Of a stretch of DNA of 64,000 bases, positions 32,353 through 42,577 are shown piece after piece. A program made the translations under genes and the position numbers. Source of the stretch: Myxococcales bacterium. GTDB taxonomy: Bacteria > Myxococcota_A > Polyangia > Polyangiales > Houyiibacteriaceae. The stretch is taken from NCBI GenBank assembly GCA_029863605.1, contig JAOTVB010000009.1, positions 87,588 to 151,587 of the forward strand. The letters are read 5' to 3'. A model generated the notes under the pieces. The model saw only the letters and a list, made by a program, of their open reading frames with translations, ran no database searches and was not told the origin of the DNA. Numbering within the stretch: the stretch's first letter is position 1; every line of letters starts with the position of its first letter.

Positions 32353-33887
32353 ATGGGGCCGCCACGAGTCTTCGAGCCACCGCCGGATTGGCATTTCTGA
32401 GCTTCGCCCTGCCGCTCGGTCTCGCGCTGACGGCGCCGCTTCGACCGCAGGGGGGCGACACCGTTCCGGCGAAGGTCGGTATGCACGTCCTTCAATGCGA
32501 ACGGTCCTTCGACCTTGCGGGCGCCAGCTGGCTTCGAGATCAGGTGCTCGCCGGGAAGCGTCCTTACTATGCAGTCGTCACTGCCGACCGCAGTCGCCTC
32601 GTGTCGACGTGGGGTCCCGGACCGGCCGTATGGGGCGCCTTGACCTCGCTTCCACTCGATCCCGGCTCGGTGGTCGACGATGCAACATTGGCGCGTCGCG
32701 CGCGACGGTCGGCTGCCCTTGCCGTCGCGCTTGCCAGCCTATTCGTGTTCTTGGCGATCGCGCAGCGAGCTCATCCTATCGTTGCGCTATTGGGGGCAGC
32801 GACCGCTGCGCTCTCATTCGGCGGCGCCGGCTTACTCGGACAGGCACTCTGGCAACAAACCGTCGCCTGTGTGGCGTTCACCGCGTCTTGGTTGGCGCTT
32901 GCGCGCGGCATGAGGGAATCGACGAGCGTTCTCTGGCTTGCCGCCGGGGCCGCCCTTTCTCTGACCGCCGGCTTGTTGCGGCCTGCGGACGGCGTTCTCG
33001 CGATCGCGGGCTTGGCGCTTTGTGTTCGGTCTTTGCGCCAAAGGCACCAGCCAGTCGGGATTGCGGCAGCAGCCGTCTTGGGGGCGATCGTATGTGCCGT
33101 GTTTGTCGCCTGGAACCTTCGACAGTTCGGAACGCCGTGGCCCGTCGGTCAATCGATCACGCACGCCGGGAGCGAGGGGTTGTTTCACTCCGACCTAAGG
33201 GATTTAGGCTTGGCTTTCGCCGCGCTCGTCCTGAGCCCAAGCCGGGGTCTCCTGGTGTTCGCTCCGATCGTGGTCGTTGCGATCGCTGCCGGGGCCCGCT
33301 CCACGAATCAAGTTAGATTCCTCTCGGCTGCGCTCCTCGTGCAGCTCGCGGTCTACGCCGCCTTCTACAAGTGGTGGGGAGGCGTCGCGTTTGGTCCCCG
33401 CCTTGCCGCGATCCCGACGTGGGCTTCGTGTTTTGTCCTGTTTGGCTTGGTCACCCCCACCGCGGTCTCCAGGCGACTCGCTGCGCCGGCGGCGATCCTC
33501 ACGATCGCAGTCGGTCTGATCGGCTTGTACCGCTACGACCCACGGAAATGGGATCTGCGCGTCGACGTCGACGCGCGACCCGCCGCCGTCTGGTCAATCA
33601 CGGACACCGTTGTTGCGGCCTCTCTACGCCCGCTCCCCGAAGGTTGGCCGGAGATCGTCGACAGCCCGCAGGGACCGTTCGCGTACTGCGTCGATCGAAC
33701 ATTCAGTCAGGGGCCAACCGGGAACCTCAGCGCGACCCCACCCAAAGACGGACTGACGCAGTCCGACGGGATGGTGAAATCGCCCAAGACGAGCGAGACT
33801 CCGGCAAAGTCGAGACCGAAGATGACCTCTGTGGCTTCCGGCGCGGCATTGGCCGTGACCGTCATGGGGTCGAGCTCGAGCCGATGA
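32349..33887 (+). CDS. Polytopic membrane protein, possibly a glycosyltransferase of the GT-C type
   Basis: 512 aa with about ten hydrophobic segments in residues 10-400. The first loop contains SWLRDQVLAGKRPYY and STWGPGPAVWGALT, and the loop near residue 350 has WWGGVAFGPRLAA, resembling bacterial mannosyltransferase-like membrane proteins without a clear family. The start overlaps the upstream TPR gene. The last ~60 residues read into sequence antisense to the downstream lipoprotein gene, so this stop may not be the ancestral one. Function is tentative. Confidence 0.6.
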   Translation: MNGAATSLRATAGLAFLSFALPLGLALTAPLRPQGGDTVPAKVGMHVLQCERSFDLAGASWLRDQVLAGKRPYYAVVTADRSRLVSTWGPGPAVWGALTSLPLDPGSVVDDATLARRARRSAALAVALASLFVFLAIAQRAHPIVALLGAATAALSFGGAGLLGQALWQQTVACVAFTASWLALARGMRESTSVLWLAAGAALSLTAGLLRPADGVLAIAGLALCVRSLRQRHQPVGIAAAAVLGAIVCAVFVAWNLRQFGTPWPVGQSITHAGSEGLFHSDLRDLGLAFAALVLSPSRGLLVFAPIVVVAIAAGARSTNQVRFLSAALLVQLAVYAAFYKWWGGVAFGPRLAAIPTWASCFVLFGLVTPTAVSRRLAAPAAILTIAVGLIGLYRYDPRKWDLRVDVDARPAAVWSITDTVVAASLRPLPEGWPEIVDSPQGPFAYCVDRTFSQGPTGNLSATPPKDGLTQSDGMVKSPKTSETPAKSRPKMTSVASGAALAVTVMGSSSSR

Positions 33888-34354
33888 GGCCCTGGCAGCC
33901 CGTCGTCGTCAGGGTCTGTCCGGAGGTCGAAATCGTTGATCGGAGCTTCGCCAAGCGACGCCGTCATGGTCGGAGGGTTGCCGCCGGTCACATTCGTGGT
34001 CACCGAGGCGGACGCGATGTCGATCGAGGTGATGCCCTCGTCGATCAGCGACCCAACGGACTCTTCGTCAAATGTCACGCTGGCCAAGAACGTGGCTTCG
34101 GTGGACCCCGAGCTCGAGAACGGTTTGGTGAGCTCGACGACCAGCTCGATTGGGATGCTGAGCCGCAGCGTGTCGCGCTCACAAGTCAGAACAAAGGTGC
34201 TCTGACCAACGGGGGGCTGGTTTCCCGTTCCCCCGGCACCGCCGCTGCCGCCCGCGCCACCGCCTCCAGCAGGGTTTAGGGGGCCCGCATTGGCCCCTCC
34301 GCAAGCAGCAATGGCACCGAGAGCAGCCACCAAACAAAGCTCACTCAACTTCAC
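33707..34354 (-). CDS. Lipoprotein with Gly-rich linker, unknown function
   Basis: 215 aa from the GTG at 34354, chosen because GGAG lies 11 nt upstream and the resulting N-terminus is a clean lipoprotein signal with IAACG (Cys18). A Gly/Ala linker (GGGGAGGSGGAGG) follows, a common feature of myxobacterial surface lipoproteins. The remaining sequence is a beta-rich domain with no recognised family. Its 3' 181 bp overlap the convergent membrane protein gene. A TTG nine codons upstream is the alternative start. Confidence 0.65.
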   Translation of the reverse strand: MKLSELCLVAALGAIAACGGANAGPLNPAGGGGAGGSGGAGGTGNQPPVGQSTFVLTCERDTLRLSIPIELVVELTKPFSSSGSTEATFLASVTFDEESVGSLIDEGITSIDIASASVTTNVTGGNPPTMTASLGEAPINDFDLRTDPDDDGLPGPHRLELDPMTVTANAAPEATEVIFGLDFAGVSLVLGDFTIPSDCVSPSLGGVALRFPVGP

Positions 34355-34723
34355 GATCAGATAACTCCGCAGGATGTCCAAAAGTGGCTAGTCGGCGCAG
34401 GGAACCAACGTCCACGCGAACCTTGGTCGGTTGTCCCTAGTTCGGTCAAGCCGCCAAAACAGCGCAGTCCCGCTGCACCTTGATCCCCGTCATGTGATGT
34501 GGGTCACAATCTACCCGGTGGCGAGCTGGTTTCCCGGGTCGCGCGTGTAAGGGAAAGTGGTTGGCTGTGGATGTAGAAAGATCGCACGCCTTTGAAGTGG
34601 GCAAGAGTTGCGCGAGCAAGCGACTTTGCGCTTGGCAAAACCCCTCGGTTGCTGCGATAAACAGGGTCCCCGTTTGCCTGAGTTCCCGCTCTGCGGTTGC
34701 CCGTTTACTGTGTCGGTTCGTCT
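34355..34723. other. Regulatory region upstream of the giant repeat gene (369 bp)
   Basis: No gene is supported here. It holds a CRP-type palindrome at 34493-34508 and a possible sigma-70-like promoter, TTGGCA (34632) and GATAAA (34656) with 18-nt spacing, about 62 nt before the ATG of the giant gene. The promoter call is weak. The region also serves as the 5' side of the minus-strand lipoprotein gene. Confidence 0.4.
34493..34508. promoter_or_regulatory. CRP/FNR-type binding site (TGTGA-N6-TCACA)
   Basis: TGTGATGTGGGTCACA is a perfect match to the core half-sites of the cAMP receptor protein consensus, 216 nt upstream of the giant lipoprotein start. The half-sites are symmetrical about six non-palindromic bases. 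It may control that gene, the divergent lipoprotein, or both. Distance from the proposed promoter (about 120 nt upstream of its -35) allows activation or repression by looping. Confidence 0.5.
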
Positions 34724-37700
34724 ATGGGTCCACGCTTCGTAGCTTTGGTCGCTTTAACATTCGTGCTTAGCGCGTGCGCCGCAGAAGGAGAGCAACAGCA
34801 AACCTCCGTCCGCGTTACGGTAGAGCTCTCCGCCGAAGAAATTGGCGCGGATCGGCTCGAATACATCGTCTCGCATCCGACTGAGTTGCCCGACTTCATC
34901 GTCGGTAACATCGAGGTCACCAGCGATACGACGACCTTCAGTCTCACATCCCTTCCAGTCGCCAACAACTACACGCTTTCGCTGGGCGTGTACCGCGATA
35001 CAGGCGAACGCTTCTGTGACGGGTCGGCCAACTTCGACATCGTCGATGGCGAGACGACCCTCCTGGCGATGATTTTGACCTGCTCGACGAGCATGGGCAA
35101 TCCGGGAGGCGAAATCGGCGTCAGCGTCACGTTCCAACTCAACTACTGTCCGGTCATCGAGGACGTCGACGTTGGCGCAAGCGCGTTCCTCGGTGACACG
35201 ATCGATCTCAGCGTCATGGCGACCGATCCGGACGGCACCGCCCCCCTCCAGATCAGCTGGAGCGCACCTCTCGGTTCGATCGCGAACTCGACCGCGGCGG
35301 TCGCGACCTATACCTGCGCGTCGGTAGGCCCCGATGTGATCTTGCTCAACGTGAGCGACACCGATACCGCCTGCGACCAGGACCGGCAGTTCTTGGTCAC
35401 CTGTCTTCCGAGCCCGCTGTGCGGCGACGGCGTGGCCGAACGCGAGGAGGTTTGTGACGACGGGGCCAACGACGGTGGTGAAGGCGAGTGTCTTCCGGGG
35501 TGTCTCAAAATCCAAGCTTGTGGCGACGTCATCACAGATGGGACCGAGGTCTGCGACGATGGGCAGAACGATGGTGGCGAAGGCGAGTGTCTTCCCGGTT
35601 GCACGAAGCTCCAGCTCTGCGGCGACGCAGTCACCGATGGCACCGAAGAGTGCGACGACGGGCAGAACGATGGCGTCGGTCCACTCGGATGTCTTCCGGG
35701 TTGTTTGTTCCCCGCAACTTGCGGTGATGGCATCACCGAGCCGCCCGAGGTTTGCGACGACTCGATCAACAACGGCGGCGAGCTCGAGTGCCTGAACTGC
35801 ACGAGCGTCCAGACCTGCGGCGACGGGATCAGCGAGGGCACCGAGTTCTGCGATGACGGATTCAACGACGGCGGTGAGGGCGAGTGCCTCGCGAACTGCG
35901 TCGGTTTCCAGGTCTGCGGCGACGTTCTGACGCAAGGCACCGAAGAGTGCGACGACGGCGTGAACAACGGCACCGGTCCCCTCGGCTGTCTGCCAGGTTG
36001 TCTCTCTCCCGCGAGCTGCGGCAACGGCACCGTGGAGGTTCCCGAGATCTGTGACGACGGCATCAACGACGGTGGTGAAGGCGAGTGCCTCGGCTGCCTG
36101 CTCGTCCAGAGCTGTGGCGATAGTCTGACTCAGGGCACCGAGGTCTGCGACGACGGCATCAATGATGGCGGCTCCGGCCAGTGCACTGCCGGCTGCCTCG
36201 CCATCCAGGTTTGCGGTGACGGGATCGTCAACGGAACGGAGTTCTGCGACGACGCGGTCAACAACGGTGACGAAGGCCAGTGTCTTCCAGGGTGCTTCGG
36301 TGTGCAGAGCTGCGGTGACAATGTCACCCAGGGAACCGAGCTTTGCGACGACGGGATCAACAATGGTGATCCCGGACAATGTGCTCCGGGCTGCCTCACC
36401 TTCCAAAACTGCGGTGACGGCGTGGTCGAAGGCACTGAGCTTTGCGACGACAGCTTCAACGATGGCGGCGAAGGCGAGTGTGCGCCGGGTTGCTTCACGA
36501 TCCAGACCTGCGGCGACGCGGTCACCGAGGGTACCGAGGAATGCGACGACGGCGTCAACAACGGCCTCGGTCCGCTCGGTTGTTTGGCGGGCTGCCTAGC
36601 GCCTGCAAGCTGTGGCAACGGCACGATTGAGGTTCCCGAGGCCTGCGACGACGGTTTCAACGACGGCGGCGAAGGCGAGTGTCTCTCCGGCTGCATCGGC
36701 ATCCAGAGCTGCGGCGACAATCTCCGCCAGGGCACCGAGCTTTGTGACGACGGTGTCAACGATGGTGACCCAGGCCAGTGTGCCCCGGGCTGCCTGAGCT
36801 TCGAGACCTGCGGCGACGGGGTTGCCGAGGGCAAAGAGCTTTGTGACGACGGCCTCAATGACGGTGGCGAAGGCGAGTGCGCGCCCGGTTGTGTGACGAT
36901 TCAAACCTGCGGCGACGCGGTCACCGAGGGCACCGAAGAGTGTGACGACGGCGTCAACACCGGCGTCGGTCCCCTGGGTTGTTTGGCGGGTTGTCTGTCA
37001 CCGGCTGCTTGCGGTAATGCGATCGTCGAAGTACCGGAGGTCTGTGACGACGGCACGAACGATGGCGGCGAAGGCGAGTGCCTTGCCAACTGCGTAGGCA
37101 TCCAGGTCTGCGGCGACAATCTGCGCCAAGGCACCGAGCTCTGCGACGACGGCGTCAACAACGGTGACCCAGGCCAATGCGCGCCAGGGTGTCTCACGAT
37201 TCAGACCTGCGGCGACGGCGTCACCGAGGGCACCGAGCTCTGTGATGACGGCTTCAACGACGGTGGCGAAGGCGAGTGTGCGCCGGGTTGCTTCACGATC
37301 CAGACCTGCGGCGATGCGGTCACCGAAGGCACCGAGCAGTGCGACGACGGCACCAACGACGGCACGGGTCTCCTCGGTTGTCTCCCGGGTTGTCTCGCAC
37401 CGGCGGCATGTGGCGATGGCGTGGTCGAGGCCCCCGAAGTCTGTGACGACGGCTTCAACGACGGGGGCGAGGGCGAGTGTTTGGCGGGCTGCGTCGGGAT
37501 CCAGTCGTGTGGCGACAGCCTCACCCAGGGCACCGAGCTCTGCGACGATGGGGTGAACGACGGCGGGCAGGGCCAATGCGCGCCAGGGTGTCTGACGATT
37601 CAGACCTGCGGCGACGCGGTGGTCGAGGGCACCGAGGTCTGCGATGACGGCACGAACGATGGTGGCGAGGCCCAGTGTCTCCCGGGTTGCTTCGGCATCC

Positions 37701-40700
37701 AAAGCTGCGGCGACGCGGTCACCGAAGGCACCGAGCAGTGCGATGACGGCGTCAACACCGGCCTCGGTCCGCTTGGATGTCTGCCGGGCTGTCTCTCGCC
37801 GGCCTCTTGTGGTGATGGTGTGGTCGAGCCGCCCGAGCTTTGCGATGATGGCGTCAACAACGGAGATGAGGGCCAATGTCTCCCCGGGTGCGCGAAGCTC
37901 CAGAGCTGCGGCGACAATCTGACCGAGGGTACCGAGCTCTGCGACGACGGCCTCAACGACGGCGGGCAGGGCGAGTGTGCGCCAGGGTGTCTGACGATTC
38001 AGACCTGCGGCGATGCGGTGGTCGAAGGGACCGAAGTCTGTGACGACGGCCTCAACGATGGCGGCGAGCTCGAGTGCGCACCGGGCTGCCAGAGCATCCA
38101 GACCTGTGGCGACGCGGTGACCGAAGGCACCGAGCAGTGTGACGACGGCGTCAACAACGGCACGGGTCTCCTCGGTTGTCTCCCGGGTTGTCTCGCGCCG
38201 GCAGCCTGCGGCGACGGGGTGGTCGAAGCCCCCGAAGTCTGTGACGACGGGATCAACGACGGTGGCGAAGGCGAGTGCTTGGCTGGCTGCGTCGGGATCC
38301 AGTCGTGTGGCGATGCGCTTACGCAGGGTACCGAGCTTTGTGACGACGGGATCAACAACGGGGATCCGGGCCAATGCGCGCCAGGCTGCTTGACGATTCA
38401 GACCTGCGGCGATGCGGTGGTCGAGGGCACCGAGGTGTGTGACGACGGGATCAACGATGGTGGCGAGCTGCAGTGTCTGCCGGGTTGTTTCGGCATCCAA
38501 AGCTGCGGCGATGCGGTCACCGAGGGCACCGAGCAGTGCGATGATGGCGTCAACACCGGCCTCGGTCCGCTTGGATGTCTGCCGGGCTGCCTGTCGCCCG
38601 CGAATTGCGGCAACGCGATCATCGAGCCGCCCGAGGTGTGTGACGACGGGATCAACAATGGTGACGAAGGTCAGTGCCTCCCCGGGTGCGCCAAGCTCCA
38701 GAGCTGCGGGGACAATCTGACCGAGGGTACCGAGCTTTGCGACGATGGCCTCAACGACGGCGGGCAGGGCGAGTGTGCGCCAGGGTGTCTGACGATTCAG
38801 ACCTGCGGCGATGCGGTGGTCGAAGGGACCGAAGTCTGTGACGACGGCCTCAACGATGGCGGCGAGCTCGAGTGCGCACCGGGCTGCCAGAGCATCCAGA
38901 CCTGTGGCGACGCGGTGACCGAAGGCACCGAGCAGTGTGACGACGGCGTCAACAACGGCACGGGTCTCCTCGGTTGTCTCCCGGGTTGTCTCGCGCCGGC
39001 AGCGTGTGGCAATGGCACGGTCGAGGTGCCGGAGGTTTGCGACGATGGCATCAACGACGGCGGCGAGGCGGAGTGTCTCCCCGGCTGCACCGGCCTTCAG
39101 AGCTGCGGCGACAACCTCACCCAGGGCACCGAGCTTTGCGACGACGGGGTGAACGACGGCGGTCAGGGCCAGTGTGCGCCAGGCTGTCTCAGCATCCAAA
39201 CCTGCGGTGACGGCGTGTCTGAGGGCACCGAGGTCTGCGACGACGGAATCAACGACGGCGGTGAAGGCCAGTGCGTAGCCGGTTGCCAAAGCATCCAGAC
39301 CTGTGGCGATGCGGTGACCGAGGGCACCGAAGCATGTGACGATGGTGTCAACGACGGCACCGGTCTCCTTGGCTGTCTCCCGGGTTGCGCCGCACCAGCC
39401 TCTTGCGGTGACAGCGTCGTGGAGCCTCCCGAGGTGTGCGATGACGGCTTCAACGACGGTGGCGAGGGTGAGTGCGTCAACTGTGTCTTGGTCCAAACCT
39501 GCGGCGACAGCGTGAAGCAAGGCACCGAGGCTTGTGACGACGGTATCAACGACGGTGGGTTTGGCGAATGCGTGCCTGGCTGCCTCAGCTTCCAGATCTG
39601 TGGCGATGGCACCGCCAACGGCACCGAGGTGTGTGACGACGGAACGAATAATGGCGGCGAGGCCGAGTGCCTCCCGGGTTGTCTCGGTATCCAAAGCTGT
39701 GGCGACGGCGTCACCGAGGGCAGCGAAGCCTGCGACGACGCGGTCAACGATGGCACCGGTCCGCTCGGTTGCCTTGCGGGCTGCACACCACCGGCAAGCT
39801 GCGGTGACGGCGTGGTCGAAGGTCTCGAGCTCTGCGATGACGGCTCCAACGATGGCGGCGAGGGCGAGTGCCTCGGCTGCACCGTGATCCAGACCTGCGG
39901 TGACGCGATCACCGAGGGTACGGAGCAGTGCGACGACGGAGTGAACAACGGTACCGGACCCCTCGGCTGTCTCGCCGGCTGCACGGCCGCTGCCAACTGC
40001 GGCAACGGCATTGTCGAGGTTCCCGAGGTCTGCGACGACGGCTTCAACGACGGCGGCGAAGCCCAGTGTCTCCCGGGCTGCACCGGTCTTCAGAGCTGCG
40101 GCGACAACATCACGCAGGGCACGGAATTCTGCGATGACGGCCTCAATGACGGCGGCCCCGGAGAGTGCGTGGCGGGTTGTTTGAGCCTCCAGAACTGCGG
40201 CGACGGCGTGACCAACGGCACCGAGGTCTGTGACGACGGCTTCAACGACGGCGGTGATAATGAATGCTTGGCAGGTTGCACTCGGATCCAGGTCTGCGGT
40301 GACGCGGTCACCGAGGGCACCGAAGCCTGCGATGACGGCGTGAACAACGGCACCGGGCCCGGCCTCTGTCTCCCGGGTTGTGCTCCGCCCGCAAACTGCG
40401 GTGATAGCGTCGTCGAACCGCCTGAGGTCTGCGATGACGGCTTCAACGACGGCGGCGACCTCGAGTGCTTCGCATGCACGGTCATCCAGACCTGTGGCAA
40501 CGCCGTCACCGAGGGTACCGAGGCCTGTGACGACGGCGTGAATGACGGCACCGGCCCGTTGCTCTGCCTCGCCGGTTGCCAGCCGCCCTCGGTTTGTGGG
40601 GACAGCGTGGTCGAGGGGCTCGAAGCCTGCGACGACGGGGTCAACGATGGCGGCGAGGGCGAGTGCCTTGCCGGTTGCGGCGGCCTCCAAGTTTGTGGTG

Positions 40701-42577
40701 ACGTCGCCATCAACGGCACCGAGGTGTGCGATGACGGCGTCAACGACGGCGGCGAGGGCGAGTGCATCGCGGGTTGCGTGGCCATCCAAAGCTGTGGCGA
40801 CGCAGTGACGAACGGGACCGAGGCCTGCGACGACGGCGTCAACAACGGCACGGGCCCGCTCAACTGCCTGCCCGGATGCACCGCGCCCGCAAGCTGTGGC
40901 GACGCTACCGTGGAGCCACCCGAGGTCTGCGACGACGGAATCAACGACGGCGGTGATCTCGAGTGTCTACCGGGTTGCACTGGTGTCCAGACTTGCGGTG
41001 ACACCCTGGTCCAAGGGACCGAGGTCTGTGACGACGGCGTCAACGACGGTGGTCCAGGGCAGTGCGTGGCTGGCTGCCTAGGCATTCAGGTTTGCGGCGA
41101 TGGCGTGCCCAATGGTACCGAGGTCTGCGACGACGGCATCAACGACGGAGGCGAGGGCGAGTGTCTCGGTGGTTGTCAAAGGATCCAGATTTGCGGCGAC
41201 AACATCACCGAAGGCACCGAGCTTTGCGACGACGGCGTCAACGATGGCACGGGCCCACGGCTCTGTCTGCCGGGCTGCGATGCACCTGCGGCTTGCGGCG
41301 ATAGCGTCGTCGAGGGGCTTGAGGTCTGCGATGACGGGGTCAACGACGGCGGCGACGGCGAGTGTTTTGGTTGTAGCTTGATTCAAGTCTGCGGTGACGG
41401 GGTAGTCGAAGGCTCCGAGGTCTGTGACGACACCGTCAACGACGGTGGCCCGGGAGAATGCCTACCTGGCTGCGAAAGCGTCCAGACCTGCGGCGACGGT
41501 GTCGCGAATGGCACCGAGGTCTGCGACGATGGCACCAACGACGGCGGTGAGAACCAGTGCCTAGCTGGATGCAACAAGATTCAGCGCTGCGGCGACGGCG
41601 CGGCCGATGGCACCGAAGCCTGTGACGACGGCATCAACGACGGCGGCAATGGCGAGTGCCTGACCTGCGCCTTCATTCAAAGCTGTGGCGATGCCAACAT
41701 CGAAGGCACCGAGCAGTGCGACGATGGCCTCAACAACGGAACAGGGCCACTCGGTTGTCTCGCGGGCTGCCTGTCACCGGTGCCGGCCTGCGGCGATCTG
41801 GTAGTAGTCCTGCCTGAGATCTGTGACGATGGTATCAATACCGGTGGCGAGGCGCTCTGCTGGTGGTGCTTCACGACGCAGTCATGCGGCGATGGCTTCA
41901 TCCAGGGCACCGAAGAGTGCGACGACGGTGTGAATGATGGCACCGGTCCGCTCGGCTGCCTGGCCGGCTGTTTCCGACCTCCCTTCTGCGGCAACGGCGT
42001 GCTCGAGGCGACCGAGGTTTGCGACGACGGCGTCAACGATGGCGGCCCGGGGCAGTGCGTCGCCGGCTGCCTCGCCATTCAGGTTTGTGGCGACGGAATC
42101 ACCAACGGTAACGAGGTTTGTGACGACGGCATCAATGACGGTGGCGAAGGCGAGTGTTTTGCTTGTTTCTTCATACAGATCTGCGGCGACGGTCTCACCA
42201 TGGGTACCGAAATTTGTGATGACGGCCAGAACGACGGCTTTGGTCCGCTCGGCTGTCTGCCCGGCTGTGCGGCACCTGCTGTTTGCGGGGATAGCGTGGT
42301 GGAGCCACCCGAGGCCTGCGACGACGGCATCAATCTCGGCGGTGAAGGGCTGTGTATCCCGGGTTGTAGCGCCATTCAGAGTTGCGGCGATTTGGTGACC
42401 AACGGCACCGAGGTCTGCGACGACGGCATCAACGACGGCGGCGAGGGCGAGTGTCTGAGCTGCACCCGTATCCAAACCTGTGGCGACGCCGTCACCGAGG
42501 GCACCGAGCAGTGCGACGACGGCGTCAACGATGGAACGGGCCCGCTCGGCTGTCTGCCCGGCTGTCTCTCACCCTAG
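34724..42577 (+). CDS. Giant surface lipoprotein with 72 cysteine-rich DUF4215 repeats
   Basis: 2617 aa. The ATG at 34724 gives a lipoprotein signal with LSAC (Cys17); a TTG nine codons earlier is unlikely. Residues ~20-135 are an uncharacterised beta-rich part, and ~140-230 contain VMATDPDG as in cadherin/PKD-type domains. From residue 233 to the end run 72 tandem repeats of 31-34 residues with the core CGDxxxxGTExCDDGxNDGG and a second Cys pair in a CxxGC motif, the 'Myxococcus cysteine-rich repeat' (DUF4215) type. Each has four cysteines, so about 288 in all. The repeats are Asp/Gly-rich and may bind calcium (inference). There is no C-terminal anchor; the protein ends at a repeat boundary. 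It probably forms a disulfide-braced, extended structure on the cell surface. Its exact role is unknown. Confidence 0.9.
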   Translation: MGPRFVALVALTFVLSACAAEGEQQQTSVRVTVELSAEEIGADRLEYIVSHPTELPDFIVGNIEVTSDTTTFSLTSLPVANNYTLSLGVYRDTGERFCDGSANFDIVDGETTLLAMILTCSTSMGNPGGEIGVSVTFQLNYCPVIEDVDVGASAFLGDTIDLSVMATDPDGTAPLQISWSAPLGSIANSTAAVATYTCASVGPDVILLNVSDTDTACDQDRQFLVTCLPSPLCGDGVAEREEVCDDGANDGGEGECLPGCLKIQACGDVITDGTEVCDDGQNDGGEGECLPGCTKLQLCGDAVTDGTEECDDGQNDGVGPLGCLPGCLFPATCGDGITEPPEVCDDSINNGGELECLNCTSVQTCGDGISEGTEFCDDGFNDGGEGECLANCVGFQVCGDVLTQGTEECDDGVNNGTGPLGCLPGCLSPASCGNGTVEVPEICDDGINDGGEGECLGCLLVQSCGDSLTQGTEVCDDGINDGGSGQCTAGCLAIQVCGDGIVNGTEFCDDAVNNGDEGQCLPGCFGVQSCGDNVTQGTELCDDGINNGDPGQCAPGCLTFQNCGDGVVEGTELCDDSFNDGGEGECAPGCFTIQTCGDAVTEGTEECDDGVNNGLGPLGCLAGCLAPASCGNGTIEVPEACDDGFNDGGEGECLSGCIGIQSCGDNLRQGTELCDDGVNDGDPGQCAPGCLSFETCGDGVAEGKELCDDGLNDGGEGECAPGCVTIQTCGDAVTEGTEECDDGVNTGVGPLGCLAGCLSPAACGNAIVEVPEVCDDGTNDGGEGECLANCVGIQVCGDNLRQGTELCDDGVNNGDPGQCAPGCLTIQTCGDGVTEGTELCDDGFNDGGEGECAPGCFTIQTCGDAVTEGTEQCDDGTNDGTGLLGCLPGCLAPAACGDGVVEAPEVCDDGFNDGGEGECLAGCVGIQSCGDSLTQGTELCDDGVNDGGQGQCAPGCLTIQTCGDAVVEGTEVCDDGTNDGGEAQCLPGCFGIQSCGDAVTEGTEQCDDGVNTGLGPLGCLPGCLSPASCGDGVVEPPELCDDGVNNGDEGQCLPGCAKLQSCGDNLTEGTELCDDGLNDGGQGECAPGCLTIQTCGDAVVEGTEVCDDGLNDGGELECAPGCQSIQTCGDAVTEGTEQCDDGVNNGTGLLGCLPGCLAPAACGDGVVEAPEVCDDGINDGGEGECLAGCVGIQSCGDALTQGTELCDDGINNGDPGQCAPGCLTIQTCGDAVVEGTEVCDDGINDGGELQCLPGCFGIQSCGDAVTEGTEQCDDGVNTGLGPLGCLPGCLSPANCGNAIIEPPEVCDDGINNGDEGQCLPGCAKLQSCGDNLTEGTELCDDGLNDGGQGECAPGCLTIQTCGDAVVEGTEVCDDGLNDGGELECAPGCQSIQTCGDAVTEGTEQCDDGVNNGTGLLGCLPGCLAPAACGNGTVEVPEVCDDGINDGGEAECLPGCTGLQSCGDNLTQGTELCDDGVNDGGQGQCAPGCLSIQTCGDGVSEGTEVCDDGINDGGEGQCVAGCQSIQTCGDAVTEGTEACDDGVNDGTGLLGCLPGCAAPASCGDSVVEPPEVCDDGFNDGGEGECVNCVLVQTCGDSVKQGTEACDDGINDGGFGECVPGCLSFQICGDGTANGTEVCDDGTNNGGEAECLPGCLGIQSCGDGVTEGSEACDDAVNDGTGPLGCLAGCTPPASCGDGVVEGLELCDDGSNDGGEGECLGCTVIQTCGDAITEGTEQCDDGVNNGTGPLGCLAGCTAAANCGNGIVEVPEVCDDGFNDGGEAQCLPGCTGLQSCGDNITQGTEFCDDGLNDGGPGECVAGCLSLQNCGDGVTNGTEVCDDGFNDGGDNECLAGCTRIQVCGDAVTEGTEACDDGVNNGTGPGLCLPGCAPPANCGDSVVEPPEVCDDGFNDGGDLECFACTVIQTCGNAVTEGTEACDDGVNDGTGPLLCLAGCQPPSVCGDSVVEGLEACDDGVNDGGEGECLAGCGGLQVCGDVAINGTEVCDDGVNDGGEGECIAGCVAIQSCGDAVTNGTEACDDGVNNGTGPLNCLPGCTAPASCGDATVEPPEVCDDGINDGGDLECLPGCTGVQTCGDTLVQGTEVCDDGVNDGGPGQCVAGCLGIQVCGDGVPNGTEVCDDGINDGGEGECLGGCQRIQICGDNITEGTELCDDGVNDGTGPRLCLPGCDAPAACGDSVVEGLEVCDDGVNDGGDGECFGCSLIQVCGDGVVEGSEVCDDTVNDGGPGECLPGCESVQTCGDGVANGTEVCDDGTNDGGENQCLAGCNKIQRCGDGAADGTEACDDGINDGGNGECLTCAFIQSCGDANIEGTEQCDDGLNNGTGPLGCLAGCLSPVPACGDLVVVLPEICDDGINTGGEALCWWCFTTQSCGDGFIQGTEECDDGVNDGTGPLGCLAGCFRPPFCGNGVLEATEVCDDGVNDGGPGQCVAGCLAIQVCGDGITNGNEVCDDGINDGGEGECFACFFIQICGDGLTMGTEICDDGQNDGFGPLGCLPGCAAPAVCGDSVVEPPEACDDGINLGGEGLCIPGCSAIQSCGDLVTNGTEVCDDGINDGGEGECLSCTRIQTCGDAVTEGTEQCDDGVNDGTGPLGCLPGCLSP
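37949..38205 (+). repeat. First copy of an exact 257-bp repeat within the giant gene
   Basis: Identical base for base to 38747-39003, offset 798 bp (266 codons, eight repeat units). It begins inside unit 26 and ends in unit 28. Flanking sequence is similar but diverged. Confidence 0.9.
38747..39003 (+). repeat. Second copy of an exact 257-bp repeat within the giant gene
   Basis: Partner of 37949-38205 at an offset of 798 bp. Covers parts of units 34-36. No mismatch seen on reading both copies. Confidence 0.9.

Follow-up and report, generated by a model that had tools for sequence, protein, structure and literature searches.

The array gene and its lipoprotein N-terminus

The DNA analysed here, referred to as the window, is a stretch of 64,000 nucleotides that represents the end part of contig C33 from a 4.2-Mb genome assembled in 54 contigs. 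On its plus strand, an open frame runs from TTG 34697 or ATG 34724 to a TAG stop codon at 42575-42577. Read from ATG 34724 to the end of the stop at 42577, it encodes 2617 aa. The product begins with MGPRFVALVALTFVLSAC, a short signal peptide whose lipobox reads LSAC. The lipoprotein signal peptide MGPRFVALVALTFVLSA (34724..34774, plus strand), kept in three orthologues, would be cleaved before the lipidated cysteine, predicted to be Cys18 (34775..34777, plus strand) and followed at position +2 by Ala (not Asp). By inspection, LSAC at residues 15-18 matches the pattern [LVI][ASTVI][GAS]C. The cysteine aligns in all four orthologues while the residues immediately before it vary. The lipoprotein assignment made in a first-pass annotation of the sequence is thereby supported.

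About 210 residues separate the signal peptide from the repeat array. They comprise a first, beta-sandwich-like domain (34802..35089, plus strand), recognised in a 29-member alignment as a module common to many lipoproteins of the genus and giving a weak fn3 match in an orthologue (E 0.016), and a second, PKD/Ig-like domain (35144..35407, plus strand). For the latter, PKD was found above the Pfam cut-off in the orthologues L040 and L041, which were aligned to the window protein; the window protein's own second domain gave no direct PKD match in Pfam. This two-domain lipoprotein N-terminus recurs in the genus with quite different C-terminal parts, including in three paralogues of the same genome. 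Since the common platform bears such unlike C-terminal parts, the array is one of the cargoes carried by a shared anchor. The same N-terminus was also observed joined to varied C-terminal parts, several of them cysteine-rich, at L042, L043, L044 and about 25 loci of related genomes. The mature protein has a mass of 256 kDa and a pI of about 4.05, and contains 295 cysteines and 496 acidic versus 22 basic residues.

Upstream lies a small lipoprotein-like gene in divergent orientation (33707-34381, minus strand). Downstream, a convergent Rieske/ring-hydroxylase gene ends 18 bp past the stop and is followed by TauD, sulfotransferase, luciferase-like and TetR genes. In two of the orthologue genomes (G001 and G040), the array gene is preceded by a lipoprotein gene whose product has glycine/aspartate-rich repeats and a single DUF4215 unit at its end. 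No operon shared across the orthologue loci that hints at function was found. The two genomes, placed in different families, share this two-gene block (L040 in G040, L041 in G001). Its array proteins are 68% identical in their N-terminal part, a closer match than that between G001 and the genome of the window. The block may reflect lateral transfer or a binning error.

The repeat array

The array (35420..42574, plus strand) consists of 72 DUF4215/TIGR02232 units with four cysteines each and the consensus CGD.V.EGTE.CDDG.NDGGEGECL.GC...Q. as obtained by unit parsing and by Pfam and NCBIfam scans. It is 2385 aa long, uninterrupted, and runs flush to the stop. The first-pass description of a single gene whose last 2385 residues are 72 consecutive units was exact, and unit parsing returned the same starting cysteine at 35420. 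The proposed DUF4215-type identity also holds: Pfam DUF4215 (PF13948) scores 336.8 bits over 16 stretches, against a gathering cut-off of 27, and NCBIfam TIGR02232 (myxo_disulf_rpt) 237.7 bits over 35 stretches, against a curated cut-off of 20.8. Unit lengths are 33 aa (42 units), 34 aa (18), 32 aa (11) and 35 aa (a single unit). All 72 units contain exactly four cysteines, in line with the disulfide-rich character noticed earlier. Across all units, ten positions do not vary (C1, G2, E10, C12, D13, D14, N17, G19, C24 and C28); positions 4-6, 11, 16, 21-23 and 29-33 differ between units and between species.

Units 12-44 (36509..39799, plus strand) are organised as a higher-order repeat with a four-unit period (399 bp, as also reported by TRF), in which 34-aa GTGPLG-type units occupy mostly every fourth place. 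Nucleotide identity in this region peaks at lags 4, 8 and 12 (0.77-0.80 versus 0.65-0.68). An exact-repeat search identified a 257-bp stretch (37949..38205, plus strand) with an identical copy 798 bp, i.e. eight units, downstream at 38747-39003. It is either a recent eight-unit duplication or an assembly-sensitive spot. Because of this exact repeat at eight-unit spacing, a short-read assembly could gain or lose eight-unit blocks, making the number of 72 units assembly-sensitive.

The TAG stop lies inside the last unit (GCLPGCLSP*), without a C-terminal anchor, in agreement with the first-pass reading. The MYXO-CTERM signal (TIGR03901: a C-terminal Cys motif, a TM helix and a basic tail) was not found, an NCBIfam scan of the protein returning only TIGR02232, though four other places in the source genome pass the MYXO-CTERM cut-off. 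An anchor hidden by a frameshift was considered and rejected: no remnant of a unit or an anchor exists 3' of the stop here or in the orthologue genome G017, and the sequence downstream of the stop is the Rieske gene of the opposite strand. An open frame of 1263 aa antisense to the array (36998-40789, minus strand) was likewise rejected as a gene. Synonymous-codon shuffles gave antisense frames with a mean of 712 aa and a maximum of 1363 aa, 2 of 200 reaching 1263 aa, and the counterpart in G017 measures 744 aa. This open frame is a by-product of codon use.

Orthologues, selection and array length

The N-terminal part was searched against 57 other relatives, those with names being Myxococcales/Deltaproteobacteria MAGs (JAOTYL01, SG8_38 and B10_G4, scaffold Guay4). 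Clear orthologues were found in three of the 57, namely G017 (90% identity), G001 and G040 (both about 48%). Their arrays contain 60, about 41 and about 53 units, respectively, with four cysteines per unit, and all of them run to the stop. This supplies the comparison of repeat counts among homologues that the first-pass annotation had called for. Between G017 and the window, units 1-25 and 45-63 (window numbering) pair almost one to one; the arrays differ in the middle by about six units and at the C-terminus by six. Nearly all of the ten invariant positions, the cysteine number and the unit register hold in the orthologue as well. Over 41 one-to-one units, window versus G017, dN is 0.047 and dS 0.60, giving a dN/dS of about 0.08. 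These sequence comparisons indicate that the array gene encodes a translated, constrained protein under purifying selection. As orthologues occur in three other genomes and purifying selection is apparent, the array is not a product of chance.

TIGR02232 is present in 174 of the 184 genomes of the order. Inspection of the longest frames gave lipoprotein-like DUF4215 arrays of 81 units in a protein of 3862 aa (L081) and of about 78 units (L082, at least 3522 aa, the 5' end being outside the locus), both in genome G099, of 73 units in a protein of 3485 aa (L080, genome G108), and of about 60 units, counted without a resolved 5' end (L083). Many arrays of 20-46 units also occur in the order, and almost all of the arrays resemble lipoproteins and extend right up to the stop. 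All these examples were chosen by length (longest frames) and do not give the typical unit number. The window protein ranks with the longest and most uniform ones, but three proteins of the same order have more units (73, about 78 and 81). A record length is therefore rejected, and the earlier claim that 72 units are far longer than usual is not supported.

Two further sets of loci were observed in this comparison. L061 (genome G169, about 4.0-10.5 kb) encodes a 2174-aa DUF4215 lipoprotein-like protein with a fibro-slime domain (TIGR02148) inside the array. L063, L077, L078 and L088 have a signal peptide as in L061, but 23-38 units, which suggests fast length change in this group. In genome G000, two contigs break off within series of C-type-lectin-like units alternating with DUF4215 units (C49 28500-33184, L046, and C15 14500-19614, L047), which are probably one gene split by a repeat in assembly.

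Known relatives and the proposed calcium link

The closest known proteins are the Myxococcota DUF4215/TIGR02232 'cysteine-rich acidic repeat' lipoproteins (L061, L071-L073, L075-L079, L080, L081 and L084-L089), which belong to the same family and have a lipoprotein-like N-terminus and an array flush with the stop. These relatives mostly mix units of four and six cysteines, 31-48 aa long, behind a low-complexity linker, whereas all 72 units of the window protein have four cysteines and 32-35 aa and follow two Ig/PKD-like domains. A full-text literature search for DUF4215 found no paper. The window protein is an ordinary, if long and very regular, member of a widespread and unstudied class.

TraA, the outer-membrane exchange receptor of Myxococcus xanthus, is a surface protein of myxobacteria whose cysteine-rich repeats were proposed to form a rigid stalk (PMC3325183). 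It contains nine TIGR04201 repeats, a PA14 domain and a MYXO-CTERM anchor, none of which occurs in the window protein. Membership in the TraA group was rejected, the repeats being of another family and the Pfam and NCBIfam scans returning neither PA14 nor TIGR04201 at E <= 1.

A DUF4215 profile built from 90 diverse units was compared with the whole PDB and matched only pappalysin-1 (E 1.8e-5) and the start of the ADAM17 disintegrin domain (E 0.002 to 0.007). This calcium link was absent from the first-pass annotation and is new. The pappalysin-1 segment consists of residues 947-976 of a 1627-residue chain (8hgg), within domain M3 (S944-G995). Taken alone it scores 30.2 bits with DUF4215 and 50.5 bits with TIGR02232, above both cut-offs. 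For domains M1-M6 of pappalysin-1 no sequence similarity had been reported previously, and cryo-EM gave evidence of two Ca2+ in M3 (PMC9579167). Both curated models thus identify this M3 segment of pappalysin-1 (PAPP-A; PDB 8a7d, 7ufg, 8hgg) as a unit of the family. Unlike the window protein, pappalysin-1 is a human secreted metalloprotease with a single unit, without array or lipid, and this unit has two extra residues before the conserved Glu. At the level of sequence profiles, the family link of DUF4215 to M3 is shown.

In ADAM/SVMP proteins, Ca2+ site II is made by the side chains of N, E, E and D in the motif XCGN(X)3EXGEXCD; this arm reportedly owes its rigidity to disulfides and Ca2+ (PMC4885070). 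The window units resemble this shoulder in the order and spacing of C, G, N/D, E, E, C and D. The positions matching the ADAM ligands are 3 (D in 64 units, N in 8), 7 (E in 46, Q in 12, N in 9, D in 3, other in 2), 10 (E in 72) and 13 (D in 72). The full set D/N3, E/Q/N/D7, E10 and D13 is present in 70 of the 72 units, with Glu at position 7 in 46 of 72. The Gly next to the ligand Glu in the ADAM motif is replaced (EGTE versus EXGE). The similarity is weak (E 0.002, family profile), the shoulder has more disulfides and is part of a larger domain, and the likeness falls short of established homology. Pfam Disintegrin (PF00200) gave no match in the window protein and one match among 120 three-unit blocks (E 4.1). 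Searches of the PDB by phmmer with the whole protein and with the relative L086 returned only chance matches. A profile of the window units alone found no match in the PDB, so that the link to pappalysin and ADAM runs through the wider family. The window-unit profile (A7) and the family profile (A6) agree with 98.4% probability, their alignments sharing a few window units. By analogy with these domains, Ca2+ binding by the window units appears rather likely.

An AlphaFold2 model of three units, computed with 120 diverse three-unit rows, reached a pLDDT of 91.3 and a pTM of 0.66. It contains isolated bridges only, with no helices or sheets, and as a model it fits a fold held by Ca2+ and disulfides. 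A six-unit model, for which only window and orthologue rows were aligned (29 in all), was discarded (pLDDT 44.6). Foldseek searches with the PDB gave ADAM22 as sole match, which is not significant (E 8.5); nothing significant was found among viral models, nor anything with VIA-align.

Proposed mechanism and alternatives

The best explanation, which we hold to be fairly probable, is that the array is a Ca2+- and disulfide-stiffened rod of an outer-membrane lipoprotein, serving as a spacer, stalk or surface-coat fibre and not as an enzyme. The protein would be exported, lipidated and oxidised, and the source genome encodes DsbA-like proteins. A type II system, whose secretin is also encoded, may bring the lipoprotein to the surface; the MYXO-CTERM route serves other proteins of the genome and not this one. 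Attached to the N-terminal lipid and the two Ig/PKD-like domains, 72 small and similar modules would make up a tail of 2385 residues. Two disulfides, in a pairing that we infer, would close each module, which probably also contains one or more buried Ca2+ ions with a structural role. Residues 3, 7, 10 and 13 of the unit would provide the side chains of one site, in the manner of the ADAM disintegrin shoulder. Since M3 of pappalysin-1 holds two ions, a second site around D14/N17/D18 is possible, D14 and N17 being invariant. Oxidised and loaded with Ca2+, the array would project from the envelope as a stiff and very acidic rod (pI about 4). Array length is adjusted as blocks of units are added or lost, both in the homogenised central part and at the C-terminal end, the N-terminal units staying fixed. 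The 'rod or adhesin on the surface' of the first-pass annotation remains something that we infer; a rod shape is favoured to a modest degree, and a surface location seems likely to a comparable extent.

An adhesin or recognition fibre, in which the units carry multivalent ligand- or self-binding surfaces for prey, kin, particles or matrix and length provides avidity, is unlikely. The variable positions that differ between units and species would suit it, as would the giant relative with a fibro-slime domain inside its array (L061) and the example of TraA, another cysteine-rich myxobacterial surface protein, which mediates cell-cell recognition (PMC3325183). However, the strong purifying selection and homogenisation give no sign of diversifying recognition, the free end lacks a separate binding domain, and TraA has repeats of another family (TIGR04201), its binding being attributed to PA14, absent from the window protein. 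The charge and cysteine content of the mature protein would also agree with a polyanionic store that buffers Ca2+ or other metals, or keeps sulfur and acid, with no need for a stiff shape. Such a polymer would require neither a fixed cysteine number, a unit register and ten invariant positions per unit, nearly all kept in the orthologue, nor a confidently predicted three-unit structure, and storage is considered quite improbable.

The leaflet on which the lipoprotein resides is not fixed by a lipobox alone, and the sequence offers no proof of surface export. The lipoprotein could then sit on the inner leaflet of the outer membrane, its array spanning or organising the periplasm. Against this stand the length of an extended 2385-residue array, which likely far exceeds the width of the periplasm, the variation from 41 to 72 units between orthologues and the type II secretin of the genome, T2SS being able to carry some lipoproteins to the cell surface (PMC11980579); a periplasmic spacer is accordingly rated as quite improbable. 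Lastly, the true gene could be much shorter or unexpressed, as the 257-bp exact repeat could mislead a short-read assembly. An independent MAG contains the 60-unit orthologue of G017, in which no exact repeat of at least 100 bp was found, so that a very long array is real regardless of the 257-bp repeat. The perfect reading frame with its cysteines and the dN/dS of about 0.08 also make an inflated or untranslated repeat extremely improbable.

Significance

The interest of the Ca2+- and disulfide-stiffened rod lies in the calcium link, which gives the DUF4215 class a testable mechanism. With a solved human relative that has bound calcium, 'function unknown' becomes directly testable, in terms of Ca2+ binding and of rod shape. 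The broader proposal, for which the case is finely balanced, is that DUF4215 is a disulfide module that binds Ca2+, is also present in M3 of human pappalysin-1 and bears a likeness to the ADAM disintegrin shoulder. The giant arrays of Myxococcota, with 40 to more than 80 modules, would be Ca2+-stiffened rods in which each chain binds from tens to more than a hundred Ca2+ and whose length is set by block duplication, a class of surface fibre undescribed in the literature searched. If this is true, the surface fibres of Myxococcota include a calcium-dependent class that changes in length during evolution as repeat blocks are gained or lost.
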